Source: Deltaproteobacteria bacterium (GTDB lineage Bacteria > Desulfobacterota > GWC2-55-46 > UBA9637). Taken from it: a DNA stretch of 48,316 nucleotides. The position numbers were made by a program, and so were the translations under genes. The stretch spans positions 1 to 48,316 of the forward strand of contig JACRML010000063.1 in NCBI GenBank assembly GCA_016214995.1. The letters run 5' to 3'. Position 1 is the stretch's first letter, and each line of letters opens with the position of its first letter. Under the pieces are notes generated by a model that searched no databases, was not told where the DNA came from, and saw only the letters and a program-made list of their open reading frames with translations. Of the stretch, positions 1,879 to 41,679 are shown in pieces.

Positions 1879-2874
1879 TTATTGTTTACGCTCTTTATTA
1901 TTAACGGGATTGTCTTGAGCGATGGCATCAAGCAAATCCGACACATCAATGGTTATCACCATATCTGGATTTTGCAAGGCGGCTGGCTCAATGTAATAAG
2001 GATGGTTTGGATTATTGAGTATTTCATGAACTAGACTTGGCTCTACCCCAAGGCTAATTAAGTAACCTTTGCGATCACAATGCCAATAATCCTGATCAAA
2101 ATTAAATTTCAATATGTCCTTTTGTTTTTCTAGTAAAGGTTCAAGTGTTTTTAGCTCACTTTGAGTGTAGAAATCATTAGGATGGCAATCATGCTTTTTA
2201 TTATTACATGTTTTACAGAGAGCAACTAAATTCCCTGGAACTAAATGTCCACCCAATACAATAGGAATGTGATGATCTATATCTAAACGTTTTATTGAGC
2301 CGCACTTAAAACATTGGTGATTGAATAGTTCAAAGAATTTGTTCTTATAAAAATCCTGAATAACTTTTAATGCAAATTTATTATTAAACTGACTTTTTTC
2401 TTTGCTTCTTTGCAAGCTCAAAATATCTTTTTTACTTCTAGGCAAATCAAGCATTATATTATAGCTACGGTGTCTTCCGTCACTAAGGTAGCCACCACCA
2501 TCTATTTTAGCATTACAAGTGGTTATTGGCGTCTTTATTCCATTGAGTTTCCGAAGACTTTTTAAGTTTAGTACGACATCGCACATGTGTAAACCGTTAA
2601 TTATAACATCAAACCGTTCTTCCTCATCATACGGCACCAACGCAGCGATACAATGGCAATCTACCCAATCATCTTTATGCGGTTTTAATATTTCCTTTAT
2701 ATTATTGAATCGCTGAAGCTGCTCAGTATATCCGCTATAAGCCGTGCCCCCTTCCCATGGTTTTTGTATATGACTTCCTAAATATTGATATGTGCCAGGT
2801 GTAGGCCAGTGATCAGGCACATAATCAATTTTAAGTAATTCAACGGTGTTGCTATGCAATTCAATGTTTAACAT
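1879..2874 (-). CDS. HNH endonuclease domain protein
   Basis: The 331-residue protein has a clear HNH nuclease motif near residues 188-226: CFKCG, then DIDHHIP with D200 and H201, then GNLVALCKTCNNKK. The two CxxC pairs would hold zinc, and His201 with Asn224 would form the metal-dependent active site. The 180-residue N-terminal part (TYQYLGSHIQKPWEGG, GGYLSDGRHRSYNI) is not recognised. It may bind DNA or a partner. The AT-rich sequence, isolated position and toxin-antitoxin neighbours suggest a horizontally acquired nuclease such as a restriction or phage-defence enzyme. No methyltransferase is adjacent, so a classical restriction-modification pair is not supported. Confidence 0.75.
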   Translation of the reverse strand: MLNIELHSNTVELLKIDYVPDHWPTPGTYQYLGSHIQKPWEGGTAYSGYTEQLQRFNNIKEILKPHKDDWVDCHCIAALVPYDEEERFDVIINGLHMCDVVLNLKSLRKLNGIKTPITTCNAKIDGGGYLSDGRHRSYNIMLDLPRSKKDILSLQRSKEKSQFNNKFALKVIQDFYKNKFFELFNHQCFKCGSIKRLDIDHHIPIVLGGHLVPGNLVALCKTCNNKKHDCHPNDFYTQSELKTLEPLLEKQKDILKFNFDQDYWHCDRKGYLISLGVEPSLVHEILNNPNHPYYIEPAALQNPDMVITIDVSDLLDAIAQDNPVNNKERKQ

Positions 2875-4456: not shown

Positions 4457-4504
4457 TTTCCCCAGTTCTTTTTACCCAAAAATGGCCTTCTACCTTTTCC
4501 TTTG

Positions 4505-4747
4505 TCATTTTTCGCTTCCACAACCTTGAAGGCATTTTTTTAGAGCGTTCTCGCATATTTCATATTTGTCGGTACTAATATTGCTTTTCATGCACCAATC
4601 GAAGCTGGCGGCACAATTGTTATTGCAGTCATCTTTTTCTTTTACGCTTTCCGGCTTTGTTGGCTCGGCGGCATTGTTAGGTTTAATGGCTGCACATCCC
4701 ATAACCACAAGCATCATCACCAACACGAATAAACTTATCTTCTTCAT
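4505..4747 (-). CDS. Small cysteine-rich lipoprotein
   Basis: The 80-residue protein has a type II signal peptide, MKKISLFVLVMMLVVMGCAA, with a lipobox ending in Cys18. The mature part is short, Pro/Lys-rich and then cysteine-rich (DCNNNCAASFDWCMKSN, later CENALKKCLQGC), with seven Cys after the lipidated one. The CxxxC spacing suggests paired disulphides in a small helical hairpin outside the cytoplasm. AGGAG lies 5 nt before the ATG. No family is recognised. It could be a surface or periplasmic lipoprotein with a structural or assembly role. Confidence 0.65.
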   Translation of the reverse strand: MKKISLFVLVMMLVVMGCAAIKPNNAAEPTKPESVKEKDDCNNNCAASFDWCMKSNISTDKYEICENALKKCLQGCGSEK

Positions 4748-4812
4748 ATGAGCTCCTGTCTGTTATGATTTTATGAGTTCAACGCTTTTTATGTATTATC
4801 AGCTTTCTTTTT

Positions 4813-4971
4813 TCATGGCTTGCCCCACTTTGTCCTCTTCAAAGAAAAGTATTGGTAAAGGGAATCGAAAATCTCCATCCCCTTATCTAGCAATTTCTTG
4901 TCATTCCTTAGTTTCAGGCTGAGTCCGATGATAATTTTATTCAGCCCCTCCGTCTCGGTACGGGAAGGCAA
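4813..4971 (-). other. Possible gene fragment of unknown function
   Basis: A reading frame ending at 4813 (…IIIGLSLKLRNDKKLL to SLKRTKWGKP) is protein-like in its last 50 residues. Upstream it runs into promoter repeat copy 3 and a REP hairpin, which are not coding. No ATG or ribosome site marks a start; the first candidate codon is TTG at 4971. It is probably the C-terminal remnant of a gene whose 5' end was replaced by the promoter repeat. Confidence 0.25.
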
Positions 4972-4981
4972 ATAATAATGA

Positions 4982-5010
4982 ATTTTAGGCCAGCCTATGC
5001 GGAGAGTCAA
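4982..5010 (-). promoter_or_regulatory. Portable promoter repeat, copy 3
   Basis: On the minus strand TTGACT, 17 nt, TAAAAT lie within a 42-bp repeat shared with copies 1 and 2. Spacing between the three copies is nearly equal (683 and 677 bp). It points at the fragment 4813-4971 and the lipoprotein gene. Confidence 0.65.
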
Positions 5011-5041
5011 GGAAAGATTGCTGAAGGAGAATAATTTTTCT

Positions 5042-5069
5042 TTGTAAATTATATTATGTGCGATATAAT
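5042..5069 (+). promoter_or_regulatory. Promoter of the ABC-F gene
   Basis: TTGTAA (5042-5047) and a consensus TATAAT (5064-5069) are separated by 16 nt. A start near 5076 would give a leader of about 110 nt that includes the paired hairpins at 5093-5159 before the ATG at 5187. Confidence 0.5.
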
Positions 5070-5092
5070 TTTTCATTCTCCGGCAAGAGTGC

Positions 5093-5159
5093 GTAGGGTG
5101 GGCTGCGCCCACCTGTTTGGGTTTACCGAATATTTTATGGTGGGCGCAGCCCACCCCAC
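5093..5159. repeat. REP-type double hairpin in the ABC-F leader
   Basis: Two palindromes, GGTGGGCTGCGCCCACC and GGTGGGCGCAGCCCACC, face each other. Each folds alone with a 7-bp stem, and together they form an 18-bp perfect inverted repeat. The same REP pair occurs inside purL at 15693-15741. In the leader it could act as an attenuator or mRNA stabiliser. Confidence 0.75.
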
Positions 5160-5186
5160 TTCTTAAATAAGGAAGGAATTTAATAG

Positions 5187-7073
5187 ATGCTTAAAGTCAG
5201 CGGTTTGGAAAAGTCTTACGGCAGTCAGGCGCTTTTTGATAATGTGAGTTTTGTGATGAATCCCGGGGAGCGCATAGGACTCGTGGGCAGGAACGGGCAC
5301 GGCAAAACAACTCTCTTCAGGATGATACTCGGAGAGGATGAGCCGGACGCAGGGGTTATCAGCGTTCCGAATTATTACACCATCGGGCATCTGTCCCAGC
5401 ATATCCGTTTTACCGAGGATACGGTTTTGAAAGAAGGGTGTCTCAGCCTTCCGGTTTCAGAGGATGGAATTGATGAAAGCTATAAAGTGGAAACTATTCT
5501 CATGGGTCTCGGATTTTCTACGGATGATTTCAACCGTAACCCGCAGGAATTTTCCGGCGGCTATCAGGTTAGGCTGAATCTTGCGAAGGTGTTGGTATCC
5601 GAGCCGAACCTGCTCCTTCTCGACGAGCCGACCAATTATCTCGACATCGTGTCCGTGCGCTGGCTCACGCGGTTTCTGCGCGCATGGAGAGATGAGATGA
5701 TTATCATAACGCACGACCGGGATTTCATGGACAGCGTGACAACCCACACCATGGGCATTCACCGCTGCAAGATGAAGAAGATTACCGGGCCAACCGAGAA
5801 GTTGTATCAGCAGATTGCGCAGGAAGAGGAGATACATGAAAAGACCCGCATCGGCGATGAAAAAAAGCGCGCAGAGGTGGAGGAGTTTATCAACCGCTTC
5901 AGGGCAAAGGCGTCCAAGGCAAAGGCTGTGCAGTCGAGGGTAAAGGCGCTTGAGAAGATGGAAAAACTTGACAAACTGGCGGATATACGAACCCTTGATT
6001 TTTCATTCAAATCTGCGCCCTTTCCGGGCAAATGGCTGATGAGCGCAAACAATATATCGTTTTCTTACAATCAGGGAGAGTCGCCTGCCTGTGCCGGAGT
6101 CACGGCAGACAGGCCGCTCTTTCAGGATTTAAGCATAGCCGTCGGTAAAAACGACAGGATCGCCGTCATCGGTAAAAACGGAAAGGGAAAGACCACGCTT
6201 TTGAATCTTCTTGCAGGAGAGATGCAGCCGCAGACCGGAATGGTTCAGCACAATCAAAATTTATCCATTGCCTATTTCGGCCAGACCAATATAAACCGAC
6301 TCAACCAGCAAAAGACCGTTGAGATGGAAATCATGGATACGCATCCTGATTGCAACCGGGGCGTGGCGCGAAAAATATGCGGCATCATGATGTTTGACGG
6401 CGACAAGGCGCTGAAAAAGATATCCGTGCTTTCCGGCGGGGAAAAGAGCAGGGTGCTGCTCGGAAAATTATTGGTAAGCCCGGCAAATCTCCTCCTTCTG
6501 GACGAGCCGACCAATCATCTTGATATGGATTCCATTGATTCATTGGTTGAGGCGATTGATGCCTTTGACGGCGGCGTGATTATTGTGACGCACAGCGAGC
6601 TTATTCTCAACAGCGTTGCCACACGGCTGATTGTATTTGACGGCGGCAAGGTGGAATTGTTTGAAGGAACCTATCAGGAGTTTTTGGACAGGGTAGGATG
6701 GGAAAACGAGAGAGAGGCCGGGGACGGCAGCAGGCCAAGCAGTAGGCAGAATAAAAATATCAACAAAAAGGAAATGCGGCGGCTTAGGGCGCAATTGGCC
6801 GAAAACCGTTCAAAGACTTTAGGTCCTCTGCAAACGAGAATTGCCGAACTGGAAAAAACCATCATGCTTTTGGAAAAGGATGTGGAAAAGGAAAGCGAGT
6901 TTCTTGTGGAGGCATCAGAAAAAGGGGACGGTAATGCCATATCAAAACTCTCTATTGCCATTCATAATTTAAATACCCAAATTGAATCCCTTTTCAAAGA
7001 ACTGGAATCGCTGACTGCCGAGCATGACGCAAAGACGAAGGAGTTTGAGGATAGGATGGGCGGGTTGGGCTAG
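5187..7073 (+). CDS. ABC-F family ATPase (Uup/YbiT-like)
   Basis: The 628-residue protein has two ABC ATPase domains and no membrane segments, the hallmark of ABC-F translation factors that act on the ribosome. The first domain has Walker A GRNGHGKTT (34-42), signature FSGGYQ and Walker B LLLLDEPTNYLD. The second has GKNGKGKTT (about 329-337), LSGGEKSR and LLLLDEPTNHLD. The charged linker (FINRFRAKASKAKAVQSRV) is the P-site tRNA-interacting region. The last 90 residues form a coiled coil, as in Uup. GGAAGG precedes the ATG. An imperfect palindrome at 6083-6114 adds the residues SPACAGVTADRP in a loop before the second nucleotide-binding domain. Housekeeping or antibiotic-protective roles cannot be told apart. 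Confidence 0.9.
   Translation: MLKVSGLEKSYGSQALFDNVSFVMNPGERIGLVGRNGHGKTTLFRMILGEDEPDAGVISVPNYYTIGHLSQHIRFTEDTVLKEGCLSLPVSEDGIDESYKVETILMGLGFSTDDFNRNPQEFSGGYQVRLNLAKVLVSEPNLLLLDEPTNYLDIVSVRWLTRFLRAWRDEMIIITHDRDFMDSVTTHTMGIHRCKMKKITGPTEKLYQQIAQEEEIHEKTRIGDEKKRAEVEEFINRFRAKASKAKAVQSRVKALEKMEKLDKLADIRTLDFSFKSAPFPGKWLMSANNISFSYNQGESPACAGVTADRPLFQDLSIAVGKNDRIAVIGKNGKGKTTLLNLLAGEMQPQTGMVQHNQNLSIAYFGQTNINRLNQQKTVEMEIMDTHPDCNRGVARKICGIMMFDGDKALKKISVLSGGEKSRVLLGKLLVSPANLLLLDEPTNHLDMDSIDSLVEAIDAFDGGVIIVTHSELILNSVATRLIVFDGGKVELFEGTYQEFLDRVGWENEREAGDGSRPSSRQNKNINKKEMRRLRAQLAENRSKTLGPLQTRIAELEKTIMLLEKDVEKESEFLVEASEKGDGNAISKLSIAIHNLNTQIESLFKELESLTAEHDAKTKEFEDRMGGLG
6083..6114. repeat. In-frame palindrome inside the ABC-F gene
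   Basis: Arms GCCTGCCTGTGCCG and CGGCAGACAGGC form an imperfect inverted repeat within the coding frame. It encodes a Pro/Ala-rich loop between the strand FSYN and the PLFQDLSI segment of the second ATPase domain. It resembles the palindromes inside purL. Confidence 0.5.
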
Positions 7074-7270
7074 AGGGGTAAGAGAACTTGTTGAAACCTA
7101 TTCTTGCAACCGCCATTTCTTAACTCATCCCATTAAGCGAGCTTTTCCGTAGGGTCCCTTTTATAACCTGCGCCCCAATATTTTATTTTGGTGGACGTAG
7201 CCGCATCCTACTGCCCCCATTGACACACCCTCTGTTTATTCACACCCCTTCAATATTTCTCTTGATATTG

Positions 7271-7307
7271 TATGTAACATATGTTACTACTATAACAAAT
7301 GTTACAT
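7271..7307. promoter_or_regulatory. Tandem palindromic operator over the chrB start
   Basis: A perfect palindrome GTAACATATGTTAC (7274-7287) is followed by a second half-conserved copy, TATAACAAATGTTACAT (7291-7307), about 20 bp (two helical turns) away. A possible promoter, TTGTAT-N17-TATAAC, overlaps them. The chrB ATG at 7299 lies inside the second site, so a bound repressor would block initiation directly. Confidence 0.5.
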
Positions 7308-8288
7308 AAATCAATAAAACAGTCGGGCTGGCTTTTATTTCTTTACAGTGTCCCTTCAAAGCCTGTAAGCAACAGGATGAGAATCTGGAGGAAATTGATA
7401 AAGGCAGGAGCCCTGCAGTTTAAAGGCGCCGCTTATATACTTCCTTATAGTGAAGATCATTATGAGTTTTGCCAATGGCTCGTATCTGAAGTAACAGCAA
7501 TGAGAGGAGAGGCTGCTTTTGTAAATGTAGGAAAGTTTGAGACAACAAAGGACAGCGAAATAACGAACCTTTTTAATCATCAAAGGGAAAGAGATTATCG
7601 CAATATCGAGAAGGGGATGGATGATATTGAAAATAAACTACAGAGCATCAGAAAGGGTAGCGGGATACAAAACAATAAAAAATTACTATCGCAATTGAGT
7701 GGATATGCAAAGGAATTTGAAGAAATAAGAAAGATAGATTTCTTCTCATCAAAGACAGGATACGCGCTAAAAAACAAGATAGAGGCATTGCACGTGGAAG
7801 TTAAAGGCATAGCTGAGCCGGATGTGAAAAGGCAAGGCGCTATCGTAGTTCAGAGGAATATTAAGGATTATCAGGGCAAGACGTGGGTTACTCGGGAGAG
7901 GCCATTTGTTGACAGAATGGCATCGGCATGGCTCATTAAAAAGTTCATAGATAAAAAGGCTGTTTTTGGATTCATTGATGAGAAAGATATAGAAAATCTG
8001 AATAAAGACACAACGACCTTTGATATACGAGGCGGAGAATTTACGCACAACGGAGCTAACTGCACCTTTGAGGTTTTTGTCAAGGCATTTGCCTTAAAGG
8101 ACAAAGCTGTAAAAAAGATAGCCGGGATTGTCCATGAAATTGACCTAAAAGATGAGAAATACACAAATCCTGAAATCAAAGGCATAGAGGAAATTCTTTC
8201 AGGAATAAGAAAGACATCAAAGGATGATACAGAAGCCCTTGAAAAGGGTATAGCTGTATTTGAGATGCTTTACGCAGCTAAAACCTAA
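7299..8288 (+). CDS. chrB: Chromate resistance protein ChrB-like
   Basis: The 329-residue protein has the two parts of ChrB. The N-terminal domain is GWLLFLYSVPSKP, RIWRKLIKAGALQFKGAAYI. The C-terminal chromate-resistance domain is TWVTRERPFVDRMASAWLI, FDIRGGEFTHNGANCTFEVF, AGIVHEIDLKD. ChrB proteins act as chromate-responsive regulators or sensors beside the ChrA efflux pump. No chrA is present here. The start at 7299 is the only ATG near the conserved region, has no clear ribosome site, and overlaps an operator-like palindrome, which suggests autoregulation. A small ORF and a possible metal-uptake operon follow on the same strand. Confidence 0.8.
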   Translation: MLHKSIKQSGWLLFLYSVPSKPVSNRMRIWRKLIKAGALQFKGAAYILPYSEDHYEFCQWLVSEVTAMRGEAAFVNVGKFETTKDSEITNLFNHQRERDYRNIEKGMDDIENKLQSIRKGSGIQNNKKLLSQLSGYAKEFEEIRKIDFFSSKTGYALKNKIEALHVEVKGIAEPDVKRQGAIVVQRNIKDYQGKTWVTRERPFVDRMASAWLIKKFIDKKAVFGFIDEKDIENLNKDTTTFDIRGGEFTHNGANCTFEVFVKAFALKDKAVKKIAGIVHEIDLKDEKYTNPEIKGIEEILSGIRKTSKDDTEALEKGIAVFEMLYAAKT

Positions 8289-8307
8289 TCTTAAAGGAGG
8301 AATCAAA

Positions 8308-8592
8308 ATGCCGCCAGTCGCAAACCATCTGAAAACAAGCATTGAAAGAACCGGCAAGGATTATAAGGAAATCCATGATTGGATTGATGGAGACCCTGCA
8401 AAAAAGGCTGAACGACATAACATCACAAAGATTTATGAGCACGGAAAGATGATTGAGGAAAAATATGGGAAAGAGGGTCTTCAGGAATATATCCAACATA
8501 TCCATGATGATGTAAAGGCCAAGTTTAACCACACACAACATGACATGGAAAAGACCATTGCAGACACTCTGGCGTATTTTGGGGTTAAATGA
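8308..8592 (+). CDS. Small conserved helical protein of unknown function
   Basis: This encodes 94 residues, MPPVANHLKTSIERTGKDYK to AYFGVK, hydrophilic and rich in His and Lys (AERHNITKIYEHGKMIEEKY, IQHIHDDVKAKFNHTQHDM). AAAGGAGG lies 7 nt before the ATG, a strong site. It starts 20 nt after chrB and shares its orientation, so it is probably in the same operon. The clustered His residues could bind metal, but that is inference. I cannot name the family. Confidence 0.7.
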   Translation: MPPVANHLKTSIERTGKDYKEIHDWIDGDPAKKAERHNITKIYEHGKMIEEKYGKEGLQEYIQHIHDDVKAKFNHTQHDMEKTIADTLAYFGVK

Positions 8593-8606
8593 AGGAGGTG
8601 ATCATA

Positions 8607-9296
8607 ATGAAAAGTCAAAGAACTCTGATATTTTTCACTATTGCTGCAGCGATGGCGTTAACAGCCTGGCGCATAACATTTGTACAGGCGGAGGAGAAGG
8701 CCGGTCGGGTTCAGAAAAGCTGGAACTTTGAGGATATACCTATTGGGCAGGTTCCAGCAGGGTGGAAGATTGATGCCACAGATCCAAAAGGCAGGTTGGC
8801 GGAATGGGGAGTCATTACCGATCATGGCGCCCCAAGCAGCCCTCATGTTCTCTCGATCACCAAAATTAATGATACCTTTGGAGGTGTATTTAACCTGTGC
8901 TGGACTTCTGATATCCTTTTTAAGGATGGTGTAATTGAATCGAAGGTTCGGGCGAATAGCGGGGAGGAAGATCAGGGAGGCGGGGTGATCTGGCGTGCTA
9001 AGGATGCGAATAATTACTATCTTGCACGTTACAATCCGCTGGAGCGGAACTTCAGGCTCTATTATGTAAAGGATGGAGCCCGGAAAATACTGGCTGATTC
9101 TGCTAAACTCGGCGTCAAAACTGGAGAGTGGTTCACTATCAGGATTATTCACCGTGATGATAAAATCGAGGGATGGCTCAATGAGAAAAAAAGCTTTGAG
9201 GTTACTGACAGGACCTTTATGAATCCGGGCGGTGTTGGGTTCTGGACAAAGGCTGATGCGGCTACGTCCTTTGATGACCTGTCTATAAGCAAGTAA
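8607..9296 (+). CDS. Exported LamG/DUF1080-like beta-sandwich protein
   Basis: The 229-residue protein has a signal peptide (MKSQRTLIFFTIAAAMALTA…VQA). It is followed by a jelly-roll domain: WNFEDIPIGQVPAGWKID, GGVIWRAKDANNYYLARYNP, GEWFTIRIIHRDDKIEGWL and a terminal GGVGFWTKADAATSFDDL. Such domains resemble concanavalin-type folds that bind carbohydrate or polymers outside the cell. GGAGGTGAT precedes the ATG at 8607; an ATG at 8589 overlaps that site and is less likely. It sits between the chrB genes and the ABC transporter, perhaps as an accessory periplasmic protein. The ligand is unknown. Confidence 0.7.
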   Translation: MKSQRTLIFFTIAAAMALTAWRITFVQAEEKAGRVQKSWNFEDIPIGQVPAGWKIDATDPKGRLAEWGVITDHGAPSSPHVLSITKINDTFGGVFNLCWTSDILFKDGVIESKVRANSGEEDQGGGVIWRAKDANNYYLARYNPLERNFRLYYVKDGARKILADSAKLGVKTGEWFTIRIIHRDDKIEGWLNEKKSFEVTDRTFMNPGGVGFWTKADAATSFDDLSISK

Positions 9297-9314
9297 AAAA
9301 ATAGAGGTGTTTAT

Positions 9315-10328
9315 ATGAAAAGGCTTCTGCTCTTATCAGTTGTTTTAGTGACTGTGGGTTTTATAGTCTGGTGGCTCATAACAGGATCAGACAATGCCCG
9401 GATGGTTGTTGTCTATGTCTCTACGGATCAGGTATTCTCGGAGCCTGTCTTAAGGGATTTCGAGAAAGAAACAGGCATAAAGGTAAGGGCTGTTTACGAT
9501 ACGGAGGAAACAAAAAGTACGGGAGCCATGAACCGGCTGATCGCCGAAAAGGATAATCCGCAGGCGGATGTCTATTGGGCAAACGAACCCATACGGGCGG
9601 TCATCCTGAAACAGAAGGGCATCTCCACTCCATACCTTTCTCCGAATGCAGAGGGTATTCCTTCTCTCTTCAGGGACTCTGAAGGATACTGGACCGGATT
9701 TTCAGCAAGGGCACGGGTACTTGTCGTCAGCAGCAAAGATGTTCCCGGGTCGGTCATGGATTATACCAATGCGAAATGGCGGAATCAGACCGTAATCGCC
9801 AATCCGCTTTTCGGGACAACCACCTCCTGGGTGGCAGCCCTTTTCACGGTGTGGGGTGATGAAAAGGGAAAAGAGTTCATGAGGAAAATGAAAGAGAATG
9901 CCGTTAAGATCTCCACAAGCAATGGGGAGTCAACCACTTTAGTCGTGAATAAAGAGTTTACATTCAGTCTGGTTGACAGTGATGATTCCACAAATGCCAT
10001 AAGAGCCGGCAAACCGGTCAGACAGATTTATCCAGACCAGGAAGACGGTGGTTTAGGATGTCTTATCCTGCCTAATGCTGCGGTACTGATAAAGGGAGGG
10101 CCCAATCCTGAGAATGGCAAGAAGTTGATAGACCATCTCCTTTCTCCTGAGACGGAGCATAGACTAGCCTTTGCCGATGCCGCGCAAATTCCGCTTCATG
10201 AAGGTGTTGAGACGCCGCCTGATGTCAGAAAGATAGGAGAGATAAAGGCCATGAAGATTGACTACGGAGCTGTAGCGAAAAAGCTCCAGGAGATTCAGCC
10301 ATTTCTTAAAGAGTGGGTGGGGTATTGA
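9315..10328 (+). CDS. ABC transporter substrate-binding protein (Fe3+-type)
   Basis: The 337-residue protein has an N-terminal membrane anchor or signal (LLLLSVVLVTVGFIVWWLI) and a family 1 solute-binding fold: VVVYVSTDQVFSEPVLRDFE, ETGIKVRAVYDTEETKSTG, QADVYWANEPI. It ends in a domain with GKKLIDHLLSPETEH and ends …LKEWVGY. This matches the FbpA/AfuA ferric-ion-binding branch, which captures Fe3+ or similar in the periplasm. AGAGGTG precedes the ATG. The permease gene starts at the next base after its stop, so the genes 9315-12611 form a three-gene transporter operon. Confidence 0.8.
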   Translation: MKRLLLLSVVLVTVGFIVWWLITGSDNARMVVVYVSTDQVFSEPVLRDFEKETGIKVRAVYDTEETKSTGAMNRLIAEKDNPQADVYWANEPIRAVILKQKGISTPYLSPNAEGIPSLFRDSEGYWTGFSARARVLVVSSKDVPGSVMDYTNAKWRNQTVIANPLFGTTTSWVAALFTVWGDEKGKEFMRKMKENAVKISTSNGESTTLVVNKEFTFSLVDSDDSTNAIRAGKPVRQIYPDQEDGGLGCLILPNAAVLIKGGPNPENGKKLIDHLLSPETEHRLAFADAAQIPLHEGVETPPDVRKIGEIKAMKIDYGAVAKKLQEIQPFLKEWVGY

Positions 10329-20860: not shown

Positions 20861-21312
20861 ACTGCCGCCAGACAACCCTGCACCCTGAAGGGGCGTATCT
20901 TGTTGGCAAAATCCTTTATGATATGGTAAAGGGATTAGACAGCAAAGTGGAGGCGGTGGGCGGCCCTACAATGGGTGCAGACCCAATTGCAACCGCCGTA
21001 TCAGTTGTGAGTCAAGTTGAAGGCAACCCGCTTCCGGCCTTTATTGTAAGGAAAGAGCCAAAAAAACACGGCCTTGGCCAATGGATAGAGGGAAAGAAAA
21101 ACCTTGCCAACGGCGCAAAGGTTGCTATAGTTGAAGATGTAGTAACAACAGGCGGCTCATCTGTTCAGGCGGTAAAGAGGGCTGAGGAGGAGGGCTTAAA
21201 GGTGGTTGCTGTTTTTGCCATGGTTGACAGGGAAGAAGGCGGCGCAGAAAAGATAAGAGAGGCAGGTTATGAGTTTAAGGCGATATTTACAAAAAGGGAT
21301 GTTATCAGTTAA
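20740..21312 (+). CDS. pyrE: Orotate phosphoribosyltransferase PyrE
   Basis: The enzyme joins orotate and PRPP to make OMP in pyrimidine synthesis. The core is clear: VILASGKKSDFYIDCRQTTL, GPTMGADPIATAVS, IVRKEPKKHGLG and the PRPP loop VAIVEDVVTTGGSSVQA. The conserved part begins at about KEKSYEKKDVILASG. The preceding 20 residues (from the GTG at 20740) are read from inside the upstream nucleotidyltransferase gene and do not resemble a normal PyrE N-terminus. The only in-frame start is that GTG, without a good ribosome site, so translation may be coupled. The function is probably retained but the first dozen native residues look replaced. Confidence 0.85.
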   Translation: MDACERNEKDKRTCKKSRKEKSYEKKDVILASGKKSDFYIDCRQTTLHPEGAYLVGKILYDMVKGLDSKVEAVGGPTMGADPIATAVSVVSQVEGNPLPAFIVRKEPKKHGLGQWIEGKKNLANGAKVAIVEDVVTTGGSSVQAVKRAEEEGLKVVAVFAMVDREEGGAEKIREAGYEFKAIFTKRDVIS

Positions 21313-21967
21313 CAGTTGTCAGTTAACAGTTATCAGTTATCAGTTATCAGTTATCAATAAATTAAAACTGTTCACTGTTTTTTGCCTACTGCTCACTGTC
21401 TTCACAGGCTGCACCGCACAACAAGAGGCGATAAAACCGTCATTGGGATATTTTGACATTTTACCCCAGATGACAAAGGATAAAAAGGTTATAGATAATC
21501 TGGACAGCAAATTATTTATATATGCAACTTATAAGAATTGGACTTTAAGAGAGGCATATGCGGATGAGTATGCAAGACGTTACCAGATGGATACTTCACA
21601 GAAAGAAAGACTCAATTCATCCGAGAAGGAACTGGATGAAAGATTTAATGAGTTCTTTATAGCGGTATATACCCCTGATGAAAGATGGAATGATTTTAAT
21701 ACCCCGGAGTCCATCTGGAAGATTTATCTGGAAGATGAAAAAGGGAGCAGAGTTTCTCCGGTTGGAATTACAAAAGTGGATGTAAACAGCCCGCTTGTAA
21801 GAGAGTTTTATCCATATCTTGACCTGTGGAGTTCTGGTTATATTATAAGGTTTCCAAAGTATACGATTGTTGCTGAAGAGCCGTTTCCTAGAAAGGATGC
21901 AGGCTATCTCAAACTTATAATAACAGGTGTTGTGGGAAGTGCAGAATTGGAGTGGCAGATGAGATAA
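21299..21967 (+). CDS. Putative lipoprotein
   Basis: The protein has about 222 residues from ATG at 21299, which overlaps the pyrE end. A lipoprotein signal is readable (LKLFTVFCLLLTVFTGCTAQ), with Cys about 37 residues in. The region before it is encoded by tandem TTATCAG repeats at 21305-21356, so the true start may be later or the repeats have extended it. The mature part (GYFDILPQMTKDKKVIDNLD, DERWNDFNTPESIWKIYLED) is not recognised. It is likely an outer-membrane-attached periplasmic protein. The envelope and signalling genes follow. Confidence 0.6.
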   Translation: MLSVNSCQLTVISYQLSVINKLKLFTVFCLLLTVFTGCTAQQEAIKPSLGYFDILPQMTKDKKVIDNLDSKLFIYATYKNWTLREAYADEYARRYQMDTSQKERLNSSEKELDERFNEFFIAVYTPDERWNDFNTPESIWKIYLEDEKGSRVSPVGITKVDVNSPLVREFYPYLDLWSSGYIIRFPKYTIVAEEPFPRKDAGYLKLIITGVVGSAELEWQMR

Positions 21968-36767: not shown

Positions 36768-39083
36768 ATGGAAAGAGAAATTGTTTTAGGAATTGATTAC
36801 GGCGGCAAATATACAGGTCTTGCGATTGTTGACCGAAGACATAATCAGGTCTTGTATGCCCGCACAGTAAAGATGCGGGACGATGTCGCTGATATTCTCA
36901 AAGGCCGCAGAGAGCAGAGAGGCATCAGAAGAACCGCTCAAACCAAAAAGAAGCGTTTGAGAGAACTCAAAGACTATCTAATAAGTATTGGATATAACGA
37001 ATCCACAGCAATATTTAAAACGGCTTACGGCCTTGCCCATAAGAGAGGTTATGATTACGCCGATATACCTAAAGAAAAGACTCCCGAAGAAATAGAGGCA
37101 ATGGATGCCGAAGATAGAAAACTATGGGAAAAAGAGAAAAAGGAGTGGGAAGAGACAAAAAGAAATTCAAGGCACAGGGAAGAAGTTTTAAAAGATGTTC
37201 GTGAGGCAATGTCTAAAGGAGGAGCGGCAGGCGAGCAGATTAAAAGGGTTGAGCGAATTTTTAATAAGCAGTATCGGCCAAAAAGATTTAATAATAGAAT
37301 TTTGACCAAGTGCAAGGTTGAAGGCTGCGGAAAAAACACTCCTCTCAGAAAAAACGCGAGGGACTTGCTGTTAGAGGATAAAATCAGATGGCTGCCTATG
37401 GAACAAGCAGACAGGAATAAACTTAAAACTGCGCTTCTTGAAAAGAAAAAAGAAGATGTTGACGAGATGTTTAAAACATACAAGGTAAACAGCGAGATAA
37501 GAAAGCAAATCAGAGACATGGCTTATAACGAGAAACTTTCAGGCAGGACGGTTTTTTGTAAGAAGCATATCCTTGAACATACTGAACATACAAAAGAGGG
37601 AAGAAAGGTTTTCAGGCTTGCGCCGTCTTTAAAGACAAAGATTGAAAATGTGCTTGCGGTCATAAAAGACGAGGTTTTGCCGCGGTATCAATTCGGCAAG
37701 GTTGTGATGGAGACCAATAATTTTGACATAGAAGTAAAGACGCAAGGGAAAAAGAAGGAAACATCCGATGATGGTCAAGATGCAAATTCGGATGAAAAAC
37801 TGGGTTTGAGGCAAAGGCTTATAAAAGAAACAAACGGCCAATGTGTCTACTGTGGTGCGAAAATAAATGAATCAAACATGGAGATTGACCACATATTTCC
37901 GGTAATTGCCGGAGGATTGAATATTTATGCTAACATGGCGGCATCGTGCAAGAAGTGTAATGGCGATAAGAAGGGGAGAACTCCTCAAGAAGCCGGGAAA
38001 TTTCCGATACCTGGAATAATTGATGCTATAAAGAAAAATCTAAAGCCCAAATTTGTTAGAAGAAAGATAGGCAGGGTTACAAGGAAGTTTGCCGTTTATA
38101 ACGATTTGAAAATCAAAATCCTTGAAAATGCAAATAGCCACCAGACCTTGGATTTCAATAAATATATGTCTCATGCCTCTATAGGCTGGCGACATATGAG
38201 GGACAGGTTAAGAGAGGAGACCAAAAATCAGGATCTGATTATTGACAGAAAACACGGGTATCAAACCGCGCATTTCAGAAAGTGGTGGCCGGATTTTATC
38301 AAAAAGCAGGCTGACGACAAGCATCATGCCCTTGATGCGGTAATCCTTGCATCAAGATGGGAGACCGATAAAAACGGTTCGCCGGATCCGTTGCACAAGC
38401 CCGTTGACAAGGAAGGCAATGAGTTTGACCCAAATAAGCATCTGACGATTGAAACAAAGAAATTTACGAGGGATAAGGGCAGCAAGGGTTCTGCATTGCA
38501 TGATAGAAACCCGCTGTCTTATAAGAAGGGCATTATTACCAGAAGATTTATGGTTACAGAGATTGAGTGCGGTAAAGAAGACGATGTTATTTCCGAGGCA
38601 TATAGTGAAAAGCTAAAAGAGGCTTTTAAACGATTTGATACAAAAAAAGGAAAATGTTTGACAGACAAGGAAGCAAAGGAAGCAGGTTTCTGCATTAAGA
38701 AGAATGAAATGGTTATGAGCCTTAAATGCACCATTAAAGGAACCGGGCCAGGGCAGATGATAAGAATCAATAATAATGTTTTTAAGACGAATGTCCATAA
38801 TGTTGGCGTGGATGTTTATCTTGATGAAAAAGGTAAGAAAAAAGCATACGAGCGAAAGAATCCAAGACTGTCAAAACACCTCATAGAACCACCACCGCAG
38901 CCTAATGGGAGAGTTTCATTTACCTTAAAACGAAGAGATATGGTTACAGTTGAAGGTGAAGACACAATCTATAGAATAAAAAAACTCGGAACATCTCCTA
39001 CAATAGAAGCAGTTGTTGGCAGTGATGGAAAAACAAGGACTGTCTTGGCCACCAAGCTGACAAAAGCAAACAATGCTGAATAG
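36768..39083 (+). CDS. cas9: Compact Cas9 (type II-D-like RNA-guided nuclease)
   Basis: The 771-residue protein is about half the size of Streptococcus Cas9. Ruv[19 protein letters not shown], Asp10. Arg-rich bridge helix: about residues 45-70 ([14 protein letters not shown]). Recognition lobe: only residues 70-300, with a zinc site C182/C187 and C264/H267. Ruv[15 protein letters not shown], Glu315. HNH domain: C359/C362, EIDHIFP with His375, then C394/C397 and Asn398. Ruv[17 protein letters not shown], His520 and Asp523. The last 240 residues are the PAM-side domain. All catalytic residues are present. The HNH zinc CxxC pairs are an IscB-like trait, but the N-terminal PLMP domain of IscB is absent. 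It lies upstream of tracrRNA, array, cas1, cas2 and cas4. Size and cas4 fit type II-D (Cas9d); a II-C variant cannot be excluded. Confidence 0.9.
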
Positions 39084-39183
39084 TTTTTAAAATTAAATGT
39101 CCTAACCCACAATAAAGGCGCCATTTCTGGCATAGAGGCTCAGGCTGGACAAACCCAAGCGTATATCCCTTCACTGTATAGGC

Positions 39184-39300
39184 GTTTTACAATTAAGGCT
39201 CTTTTGAATTTCGCAAACCCCTATGGGTTTAATTCAAAAAATATATTTTCGGAAATTTTGCGATTTGCTTCTGATAAACCCTTTGAATTTCCAGCAAAAC
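39184..39300 (+). ncRNA. tracrRNA
   Basis: TTACAATTAAGGCTCTTT (39187-39204) is the reverse complement of the 3' half of the CRISPR repeat with one mismatch. After a bulge, CGCAAAC (39212-39218) pairs with the repeat 5' end (GTTTCACG). So the + strand carries an anti-repeat for crRNA made from the same strand. Downstream are hairpin AAACCC-CTAT-GGGTTT (39215-39230) and a long hairpin with GGAAATT (39251-39257) and AATTTCC (39286-39292), extended by TTTT/AAAA. TCGCAAA/TTTGCGA can pair as an alternative. It has no terminator and stops 7-8 nt before the first repeat, so it may be co-transcribed with the array. The exact ends are inferred. Confidence 0.8.
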
Positions 39301-39307
39301 AAGAACG

Positions 39308-39564
39308 GTTTCACGCCATATTTTCAAAGAGCCTTAACTGTAACTGAGGTAAATCCCCGCGCATCCAGAACCGTGCCGTTGTTTCACGCCATATTTTCAA
39401 AGAGCCTTAACTGTAACCTCCAACAGACTTCATCTGTGTCATCAGGGTCGGATGTTTCACGCCATATTTTCAAAGAGCCTTAACTGTAACTCCGTGTCGG
39501 CATCGGTATTGCCGCTGTGGATTCTCAGTTTCACGCCATATTTTCAAAGAGCCTTAACTGTAAC
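39308..39564 (+). CRISPR. CRISPR array, four repeats and three spacers
   Basis: The 37-nt repeats are identical at 39308-39344, 39381-39417, 39454-39490 and 39528-39564. Each begins GTTTCACGCCATATTTTC and ends CCTTAACTGTAAC. Spacers are 36, 36 and 37 nt (39345-39380, 39418-39453, 39491-39527) and all differ. The tracrRNA anti-repeat shows that the functional crRNA is read on the + strand. The leader is either the tracrRNA side (upstream) or 39565-39649. The lack of repeat degeneration and the small size suggest a young or slowly acquiring array. Confidence 0.97.
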
Positions 39565-39649
39565 AAAACGCATTTGCAATAAAGTTCAAACTGATATATG
39601 TTTACACTATCTTTTCTGGAAATTCAAGTGTTTATTTAGGGAGGTCTAT

Positions 39650-40843
39650 ATGGATAATGAAACATCAAAAATCCTCCGCATTCATCCGGAATACCAACCA
39701 GCAGAAAAACTTCCGCCTGCACAGTTCAATCTCTTTACAGGAGAAGCAGAGCCAATTCCACAACTGATTGACAAAAGTATTGATGACGAAATATTCATTG
39801 ACAATGGGATTTCGCTTATACAGAGCGGAGATTCCTCGCAGATAGTTCTGTCAGGTTTTGGTATTTTCCTGAGCAAGAAAAGTGAGCGCCTTATTGTAAA
39901 AAAGAGCAGTAAGGTTATTTATGAATTTCCTTTTTTCAGACTGAATGAGGTTATTGTATGTTCAAGGGGCGTGTCATTATCTTCCGACCTTGTTGAAGAG
40001 TTATGCCAAAGGGGGATAAGGCTGAATTTTTTGACAAATAGCGGCAAACCATATGCAATGCTTTCCTCGCCCATGCTCTCTGCAACGGTTGTATCCAGAA
40101 GAGAGCAGATTATGGCGTTTAATGATGAAAGGGGGCTTGAATTCTCAAAGGCGGTTGTAGAAGGAAAGATTGTAAATCAGGAAAGGCTTATAAGATATTT
40201 TGGCAAGTATATTAAGACCGTAGATATTGACAGATTTAATAAACTTGAAGGGATTGCTGATGATATTAAAAAGATGAGCGGGCAGGTAGATAATATTGAC
40301 GGGCAAAATATTGAAAATGCAAGAGGTGGTTTGATGGCAATAGAGGGTATATCAGGCAGATTATATTGGGGCGCGGTCAAAGAGATTATTGCAGGAAAGG
40401 TTGAGTTTTTCGGCCGCGAGACAAGAGGGGCAGTGGATAAGGTAAACTCTCTCTTAAATTATGGTTATGGCATTCTCTATTCGCATGTCTGGGGCGCAAT
40501 TATAAATGCAGGTCTTGAGCCGTTTGCGGGATTTCTGCATGTGGACAGGCCCGGCAAGCCGTCTCTTGTTCTGGACCTGATTGAGGAATTCCGCCAGCCT
40601 GTTGTTGATAAGGTTGTAATTGCCCATATCAACCTCGGGGAATCCATTGACATGAAAAATGGATTGATTGAAGAGGAAACAAGAAAGGCGATAGGAAGCA
40701 AAATTATAGAGAGGCTGGAAAGCCAGGAGGTATTTGAAGGAAAGAAATATAGAATCAGGTCTATTATCCAGATACAGGCAAGAAATCTATCGGCTTTTTT
40801 GAGCGGCAGAAGAAAGTATAAGGCATTCAGGTTCAAGTGGTGA
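39650..40843 (+). CDS. cas1: Cas1 integrase with N-terminal extension
   Basis: The 397-residue protein is the CRISPR spacer integrase. The core begins near IVLSGFGIFLSKKSERLIVK (residue 66) and includes Glu232 in IEGISGRLYW, His297 in GFLHVDRPGKPSL and Glu312 in DLIEEFRQPV, the metal-binding triad. The first 65 residues (RIHPEYQPAEKLPPAQFNLF, EPIPQLIDKSIDDEIFIDNG) are an extra segment not seen in standard Cas1 of 300-340 residues. GGGAGGTC precedes the ATG at 39650. Cas2 starts 1 nt after the stop. It works with Cas2 and probably Cas4 in spacer acquisition. Confidence 0.95.
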   Translation: MDNETSKILRIHPEYQPAEKLPPAQFNLFTGEAEPIPQLIDKSIDDEIFIDNGISLIQSGDSSQIVLSGFGIFLSKKSERLIVKKSSKVIYEFPFFRLNEVIVCSRGVSLSSDLVEELCQRGIRLNFLTNSGKPYAMLSSPMLSATVVSRREQIMAFNDERGLEFSKAVVEGKIVNQERLIRYFGKYIKTVDIDRFNKLEGIADDIKKMSGQVDNIDGQNIENARGGLMAIEGISGRLYWGAVKEIIAGKVEFFGRETRGAVDKVNSLLNYGYGILYSHVWGAIINAGLEPFAGFLHVDRPGKPSLVLDLIEEFRQPVVDKVVIAHINLGESIDMKNGLIEEETRKAIGSKIIERLESQEVFEGKKYRIRSIIQIQARNLSAFLSGRRKYKAFRFKW

Positions 40844-40844
40844 T

Positions 40845-41117
40845 ATGGAAGAGCATACTGTTTATATTTTCTATGACATAGAAGACGACGGCATCCGCAA
40901 TAAGGTAGCAGAGACCTGCAAAGACTATGGGCTTCAAAGGATTCAATTCAGCGGATTTTCAGGCATGTTGGGCAAAAATAAGCGTGAAGAACTTTTTTTA
41001 AAGCTTTCCTTTCTCATTGGCGATAAAGCCGGAAAACTCCTTATGCTCCCTGTTTGTGAAAAAGACATCACTGCCAAAAGGGAACTCATACAGGAAAATA
41101 GAGATGATTCAGATTAG
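40845..41117 (+). CDS. cas2: Cas2
   Basis: The 90-residue ferredoxin-fold protein VYIFYDIEDDGIRNKVAETC … QRIQFSGFSGMLG is a typical Cas2, with the Asp of the YDIEDD segment. Cas2 forms the central dimer of the Cas1-Cas2 integrase complex. It starts 1 nt after cas1 and overlaps cas4 by 14 nt, so the adaptation genes are one operon. Confidence 0.95.
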   Translation: MEEHTVYIFYDIEDDGIRNKVAETCKDYGLQRIQFSGFSGMLGKNKREELFLKLSFLIGDKAGKLLMLPVCEKDITAKRELIQENRDDSD

Positions 41118-41679
41118 GGTTAGCGACATTAAACAGTTTGTCTATTGTCAAAGGGTTGTGTTCTATAACTATGTTATGCCTGTTGATAAAAAGACAACCT
41201 TTAAGATGGAATATGGAAAGATAGCAGAGGATAAGATAGACAGATTGGAAAACAGAAGGAAACTTAAGGAATATGGCTTGTCCAGCGGCACGAGAGAATT
41301 TCATAAACAATTATATTCTGAAAAATATGGTTTGTCCGGCAAGGTGGATTTGCTCATAAAAACGGATGCTGCGTACTATCCTGTGGATTTTAAATATACT
41401 ACCTCGCAGCCCCATAAAAATCATCTTTATCAGCTTTTGGGCTATGCTATAATTCTTGAGGATATTTATGATTACGTTATCAGAAAAGGTTTTGTATATT
41501 TGATTCCAGAAGAGGATGCTGTGGTTTTTGATTTGAGTGATGACCTAAAGGACGAAACTAAAAATCTGTTGAGCGAGATAAGAAAAATGATACACTACCA
41601 GCAAATTCCTCCGCCTGTAAAATCGCAAGCCAAATGCCTTGATTGCGAATATCGTAATTTTTGCGGAGATGTATTTTGA
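41104..41679 (+). CDS. cas4: Cas4 nuclease
   Basis: The 191-residue protein has the RecB-like nuclease core (EKYGLSGKVDLLIKTDAAYY, PVDFKYTTSQ with catalytic Asp and Lys). Its Fe-S cluster cysteines are Cys15 in FVYCQRV and a C-terminal group in KCLDCEYRNFCGD. Cas4 trims prespacer ends and selects PAM-bearing fragments before integration by Cas1-Cas2. The start at ATG 41104 (after GGAAAATAGAG) overlaps cas2. Cas4 in a type II locus is uncommon and supports the II-B/II-D-like assignment; Cas9 here is far too small for II-B. Confidence 0.9.
   Translation: MIQIRVSDIKQFVYCQRVVFYNYVMPVDKKTTFKMEYGKIAEDKIDRLENRRKLKEYGLSSGTREFHKQLYSEKYGLSGKVDLLIKTDAAYYPVDFKYTTSQPHKNHLYQLLGYAIILEDIYDYVIRKGFVYLIPEEDAVVFDLSDDLKDETKNLLSEIRKMIHYQQIPPPVKSQAKCLDCEYRNFCGDVF

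Follow-up and report, generated by a model that had tools for sequence, protein, structure and literature searches.

A short CRISPR array and an anti-repeat lie side by side in a 48,316-nt contig of a Deltaproteobacteria bacterium (GenBank JACRML010000063.1; "the window" below means this whole stretch), and their closeness raises the question of how the two are read: on which strand and in which order, from which end the array grows, and whether one RNA could carry guide and scaffold together. The reading that we favor, at a probability of roughly 0.6, is that of a type II-D locus in which a minus-strand array is followed by the tracrRNA, new spacers would enter at the array's 3′ end beside the tracrRNA, and array transcription would read through into it.

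Locus plan and relatives

By gene content and homology, the window locus is assigned to CRISPR-Cas subtype II-D (Cas9d), to which it adds a member with a shared locus plan. The cas9, cas1, cas2 and cas4 genes all lie on the plus strand, and the array and tracrRNA both on the minus strand. The cas1, cas2 and cas4 adaptation module is present, as expected for II-D, which in the updated classification carries these three genes and a tracrRNA (PMC12669027).

36768–39083, plus strand: cas9, type II-D (Cas9d), 771 aa (phmmer E=0 to PDB 8w2s/8zq9; 75% identity to the L019/L022 Cas9d)
39308–39564, minus strand: CRISPR array of four 37-nt repeats and three spacers, with crRNA sense on the minus strand (strand from the tracrRNA and Cas9d guide geometry)
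39574–39602, plus strand: promoter-like TTGYAA-N17-TATGWT 5′ of cas1 (4/5 loci: window, L020, L021 and L027; not L022)
39650–40843, plus strand: cas1 (Pfam Cas_Cas1, 6.5e-67)
40845–41117, plus strand: cas2 (Pfam CRISPR_Cas2, 8.2e-15)
41107–41679, plus strand: cas4 (Pfam Cas_Cas4, 9.1e-18)

The four repeat copies start at 39308, 39381, 39454 and 39528. On the minus strand the order is thus the array, a stretch of about 105 nt, and then the anti-repeat and scaffold, which end beside the cas9 stop codon. Elsewhere in the window we noted a tandem array of the 7-base unit GTTATCA (21301–21356; 8 copies, 87% matches) and a second HNH-like stretch (2179–2340, minus strand), 35% identical to the Cas9d HNH region and set in a 333-aa open frame.

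The window Cas9 is, by homology, a compact type II-D Cas9d: phmmer matches it over its full length (residues 1–771) to PDB 8w2s, 8zq9 and 9auf at E=0, and to 9lgi at 1.6e-286. In alignment A1 it is 75% identical to the protein of Deltaproteobacteria GWF2_42_12 (L022) and 63% identical to 9lgi. Residues D10, E315, H375, N398, H520 and D523, which we take to be the RuvC/HNH active site, and C182, C187, C264, H267, C359, C362, C394 and C397, presumably the Zn-ribbon residues (with H267 among the cysteines), are all present in the window and invariant in A1. The four published PAM-contact residues are conserved as well, and an NGG-type PAM is predicted for the window Cas9d. An exact match in viral contigs to the 3′ 22–23 nt of the window spacers was found for none of the three.

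Five loci were compared: the window, L022, L020 (Nitrospirae bacterium RBG_13_39_12; PDB 9lgi, whose Cas9d we take to be NsCas9d), L021 (Nitrospirae FK_Sedi_A_Bin.59) and L027 (genome G466); L019 is the same contig as L022 and was counted once. Scans with a single protein returned no Cas9d relatives from genome contigs or viral contigs. The alignment scan returned four loci from the genome contigs, three of them full-length, the other (L023) matching in its HNH part only and being dropped; it returned none from the viral contigs. Plasmids and phages held only partial matches of IscB or HNH type, none covering 80% of the query. Full-length Cas9d was found in 2/59, 1/395, 2/63, 2/2, 3/230 and 2/395 genomes of sets that overlap and in some cases include the window's own genome; in the 59-genome set, 11 further genomes gave short partial matches, mostly to the HNH region, and were dropped.

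As judged from the five sequences, the arrangement of array and tracrRNA is a locus plan common to the window and its relatives. The L020 locus has the same order of cas9, minus-strand tracrRNA and array, with a spacing of 104 nt, but its Cas9d is only 63% identical and its contig carries no cas1 after the array; there, positions 4500–10014 hold unrelated open frames, as if an element had been inserted or the adaptation genes lost. Among described systems, the Cas9d-MG34-1 locus (PMC9755519; PMC11706934; PDB 8w2s, 8zq9, 9auf) shares the P1–P4 scaffold and kissing loop with the window, and its array and tracrRNA region are read in one orientation (PMC9755519). It is connected to the window through L022, whose protein is identical at 743/747 positions to the first 747 residues of the 8w2s chain; the structure paper describes a Cas9d of 747 residues (PMC11706934). 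The window differs from MG34-1 in its 771 rather than 747 aa, in its spacers and in having an A where the sgRNA has G59. The accessible portions of PMC9755519 and PMC11706934 discuss neither the acquisition side nor a guide formed in cis.

Strand and scaffold of the tracrRNA

Because anti-repeat and repeat form a long inverted pair, the region folds well from either strand: the stretch spanning anti-repeat and repeat 1 folds much more stably than its shuffles both on the plus strand (z −3.97) and on the minus strand (z −4.71). Folding energy alone was therefore dropped as a strand test, and the strand needed a separate one. We anchored the register at the P3-loop GUCC and compared the 15 bases named in PMC11706934, in which one and the same triplex is given U110 in the text and U108 in a legend, each of which entered the count. 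Fourteen of the 15 fit on the minus strand, with position 59 at 39185 and position 158 at 39086, and the sole misfit is an A at the published G59. No other offset on either strand of the window fits as well, the next best score (12) occurring once per strand, and the kissing partners GUCC and GGAC are spaced as published.

39086–39212, minus strand: tracrRNA (14/15 named sgRNA bases; 152/155 paired cells over five loci; 3′ end by analogy with published sgRNA position 158)
39215–39230, minus strand: small recurring hairpin AAACCC/GGGTTT just before the anti-repeat (alignment A4)
39187–39212, minus strand: anti-repeat, which forms P1 with the 5′ end of the repeat in crRNA sense (duplex −29.6 kcal/mol on the minus strand)
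39165–39184, minus strand: 5′ strand of P2, published nt 60–79 (published structure, base fit, pairing counts)
39138–39160, minus strand: P3 hairpin, whose loop GUCC (39147–39150) is the kissing-loop partner (published structure, base fit, pairing counts)
39120–39131, minus strand: P4, a 4-bp stem with tetraloop, GCCA-GAAA-UGGC (published structure, base fit, pairing counts)
39105–39119, minus strand: 3′ strand of P2, published nt 125–139 (published structure, base fit, pairing counts)
39099–39102, minus strand: GGAC, kissing partner of the P3 loop, published nt 142–145 (published structure, base fit)

The pairing counts point the same way. Over the five loci, 152/155 helix cells hold standard pairs on the minus strand versus 121/155 on the plus strand, for helices drawn from PMC11706934 and the window fold. 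Four pairs vary on both sides; the covariation score and the share of paired cells were each equalled by 7/500 shuffles, the number of pair types by 215/500, and sliding the partners against each other lowers pairing to at most 46.5%. With only five sequences, and a structure taken partly from one of them, these counts are not proof by themselves; they support the minus strand jointly with the scaffold base fit. Folded by itself, the tracrRNA body is only slightly more stable than shuffles (z −1.31; 22/200 as good), and the repeat:anti-repeat duplex comes to −29.6 kcal/mol in minus-strand sense and to −24.1 kcal/mol in plus-strand sense.

We conclude with high confidence that the tracrRNA is read from the minus strand, where it follows the array and its body occupies 39086–39184. 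Its 3′ end, placed by analogy with the published length, falls within 3 nt of the cas9 stop codon. L021 is without the GUCC/GGAC kissing bases; by eye, an AUAUCG in its P3 loop could pair with a CGAUAU in the 3′ tail.

The sequence-only reading had instead placed a tracrRNA at 39187–39300 on the plus strand, before the array and acting as its leader, with plus-strand crRNAs. Anti-repeat and repeat do pair on the plus strand as well, yet scaffold fit, pairing counts and duplex energies all favor the minus strand. The supposed plus-strand body has diverged between the window and L022, whereas the minus-strand body is nearly unchanged, differing at two P2 sites only. Within the gap between anti-repeat and array (39213–39307), only the hairpin at 39215–39230 recurs among the relatives, with one broken pair on the minus strand (1/5 loci) and three on the plus strand (2/5 loci). 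In type II guides, furthermore, the spacer-adjacent part of the repeat is paired, and a plus-strand reading would leave it unpaired. We regard a plus-strand tracrRNA as ruled out by the scaffold match and the pairing counts, with a negligible probability left to it.

What this earlier reading had seen of the elements themselves holds: the anti-repeat (about 39187–39212, with its exact core at 39187) and the short array are real and adjacent. It was also right that tracrRNA and array share a strand, which is however the minus strand. The scaffold hairpins do not end about 8 nt before repeat 1, as it had supposed, and lie on the other side of the anti-repeat; nor is the tracrRNA a leader read ahead of the array, which it follows.

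Side of spacer entry and transcription

Degenerate repeats mark the old end of an array. They are found on the cas1 side in L020, L021 and L027 (3/5 loci; 0, 1 and 0 of 500 shuffles, respectively, score as well), and none of the five loci has one on the tracrRNA side; for L027 we scanned a stretch picked further out, past an insert. In the window and L022, no clear degenerate repeat was seen on either side. The spacing from the anti-repeat core to the repeat is 105, 106, 104, 110 and 106 nt in the five loci (104 in L020), and the cas1-side distance is 85, 334, 152 and 435 nt in the four loci with cas1. Because the degenerate repeats lie on the cas1 side and the spacing on the tracrRNA side is constant, the acquisition end is probably the 3′ end of the array transcript, next to the tracrRNA; for the window itself, we infer this side from its relatives.

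39345–39380, minus strand: spacer adjoining the last repeat in transcript order, probably the newest (polarity from the relatives' degenerate repeats)
39213–39307, minus strand: gap from the last repeat to the anti-repeat, the probable 3′ leader on the acquisition side (constant spacing; no degenerate repeat here in 5/5 loci)

The usual plan places the leader at the transcript start. On that plan, a minus-strand array and tracrRNA would have their leader on the cas1 side, spacers would enter upstream at 39565, and the tracrRNA side would be the old end. A promoter-like motif does recur on the cas1 side in 4/5 loci, though on the plus strand; the degenerate repeats lie at precisely this end in 3/5 loci and never at the tracrRNA side, and the distance on the cas1 side ranges between 85 and 435 nt, with an unrelated gene there in L022. 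We consider this arrangement improbable, and favor entry next to the tracrRNA, as the sequence-only reading had anticipated, although at the 3′ rather than the leading end; the comparison of locus order in relatives that it called for bears out the adjacency, with an anti-repeat-to-array spacing of 104–110 nt in 5/5 loci.

The flanks of the arrays hold several further features. By eye, the promoter-like motif of L020 and L021 (at 4497 and 4728) overlaps the near-palindrome GTGTAATATGATTACAC; that of L027 lies at 2009. The L019/L022 contig has a 100-aa open frame between array and cas1 (4824–5126, plus strand), presumably resembling a DUF2283-type protein and absent from the window, and L027 has about 350 nt of unrelated sequence (1648–2000), perhaps an insertion, from its last intact repeat to the degenerate repeat before cas1. 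By eye, about 14 bases recur in inverted orientation on the two sides of the window array (near 39284 and 39617); this copy was not seen in L022 and was judged to be chance.

Growth at the 3′ end has a precedent in type II-C, where 3′-end acquisition, a mutated first repeat and an array opposite the cas genes are described (PMC12638026, PMC12080349, PMC3936727, PMC6737040), as in C. jejuni and N. meningitidis (PMC3936727, PMC12638026, PMC12080349). A II-C-like old-end repeat stands at the transcript start in 3/5 loci, not in the window itself. The window differs from type II-C in its Cas9 subtype, in the presence of cas4, and in a repeat end without the −10 box that C. jejuni carries, where the repeat ends GGTAAAAT (PMC3656092). 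A II-C assignment was not adopted, given the Cas9d and a repeat that lacks a −10 box at its end. Promoters embedded in the repeats were likewise not seen, the crRNA-sense repeat ending GTGAAAC.

On neither strand did the consensus scan pick up a terminator-like site in the gap from anti-repeat to array, in agreement with the sequence-only reading, nor did it give a minus-strand promoter for array or tracrRNA in 38950–39750. It gave three minus-strand terminator-like sites, one being P4 inside the tracrRNA and two lying in cas1. Since the scan gave no terminator between them, a single transcript over array and tracrRNA is plausible, as a predicted read-through. For MG34-1, environmental reads cover the array and tracrRNA region in one orientation (PMC9755519), and array promoters reportedly give rise to most of the tracrRNA species in C. 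jejuni (PMC3656092). The contiguity had been thought unusual, which holds only in part. It agrees with a review whose accessible text describes tracrRNAs as not encoded contiguously with the array (PMC8730458), and in that view contiguity is unusual; MG34-1 and C. jejuni nonetheless offer precedents (PMC9755519, PMC3656092).

The main rival to read-through is a private tracrRNA promoter in the gap. Strand and order would be the same, the tracrRNA would start at about 39213–39246 (minus strand) and the array on the cas1 side, and the adjacency would have no transcriptional meaning. The block TTTTTTGA...GGTTTGCGAAAA is indeed the best conserved part of the gap across the five loci (alignment A4), and most described type II tracrRNAs have their own promoter (e.g. 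PMC4624362). Yet the consensus scan gave no minus-strand promoter at this block, which shows only a weak −10-like GAAAAT by eye, and C. jejuni sets the precedent of a tracrRNA made from array promoters (PMC3656092). We take separate promoters to be a serious possibility, though a minority one.

In the read-through reading that we prefer, the array would be transcribed first on the minus strand, and the tracrRNA, which follows some 105 nt after the last repeat, reaches up to the cas9 3′ end. New spacers would be inserted at the tracrRNA-proximal 3′ end of the array, whose transcript would run on into the tracrRNA. RNase III would then cleave the duplex of repeat and anti-repeat, leaving an ordinary dual guide; its gene is present in 5/5 genomes, and ordinary dual-guide processing is therefore expected too.

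A possible natural single guide

The predicted read-through RNA would have the order 5′-newest spacer, repeat, a loop of about 105 nt, anti-repeat, tracrRNA-3′, which is the topology of an sgRNA. We envision that read-through from the last spacer into the tracrRNA might yield a natural single-guide RNA, in which the newest spacer would take the cis-guide position and be used at once and preferentially, a tentative proposal that we think unlikely on balance. The DNA order and folds are compatible with a single transcript of guide, repeat, anti-repeat and scaffold in 5/5 loci. In all five, the anti-repeat is able to pair in cis with the repeat closest to it, as had been proposed, with 18–19 of the first 20 repeat bases paired at a mean probability of 0.88–0.94, and the 295-nt window RNA folds in sgRNA order (z −2.51; 3/200 shuffles as good). 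Such a fold is weak evidence for a cis guide, because any adjacent anti-repeat must pair in this way; independent support comes from the constant spacing only. The protein does not touch the last 7 bp of P1, which are removable (PMC11706934), and therefore a large loop there may be tolerated. In the literature searched, with most subscription papers outside its coverage, no title names a natural single guide for II-D. The omega-RNA of IscB likewise carries its guide at the 5′ end and then the scaffold in one RNA, as the predicted read-through transcript would, but it is about 200–400 nt long and without an array (PMC9640706); the guide in the window would come from a spacer array.

How any guide for this compact Cas9d is designed depends on the corrected tracrRNA strand. 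Should only the ordinary dual-guide reading hold, the window adds one more II-D locus that is well supported and follows a constant plan. If the single guide is real, it would give arrays that grow at their 3′ end a ranking of memories in which the newest spacer is prioritised, and would be a present-day echo of IscB's one-RNA guide, linking the two-RNA guide of Cas9 with the single RNA used by its IscB-like ancestor.
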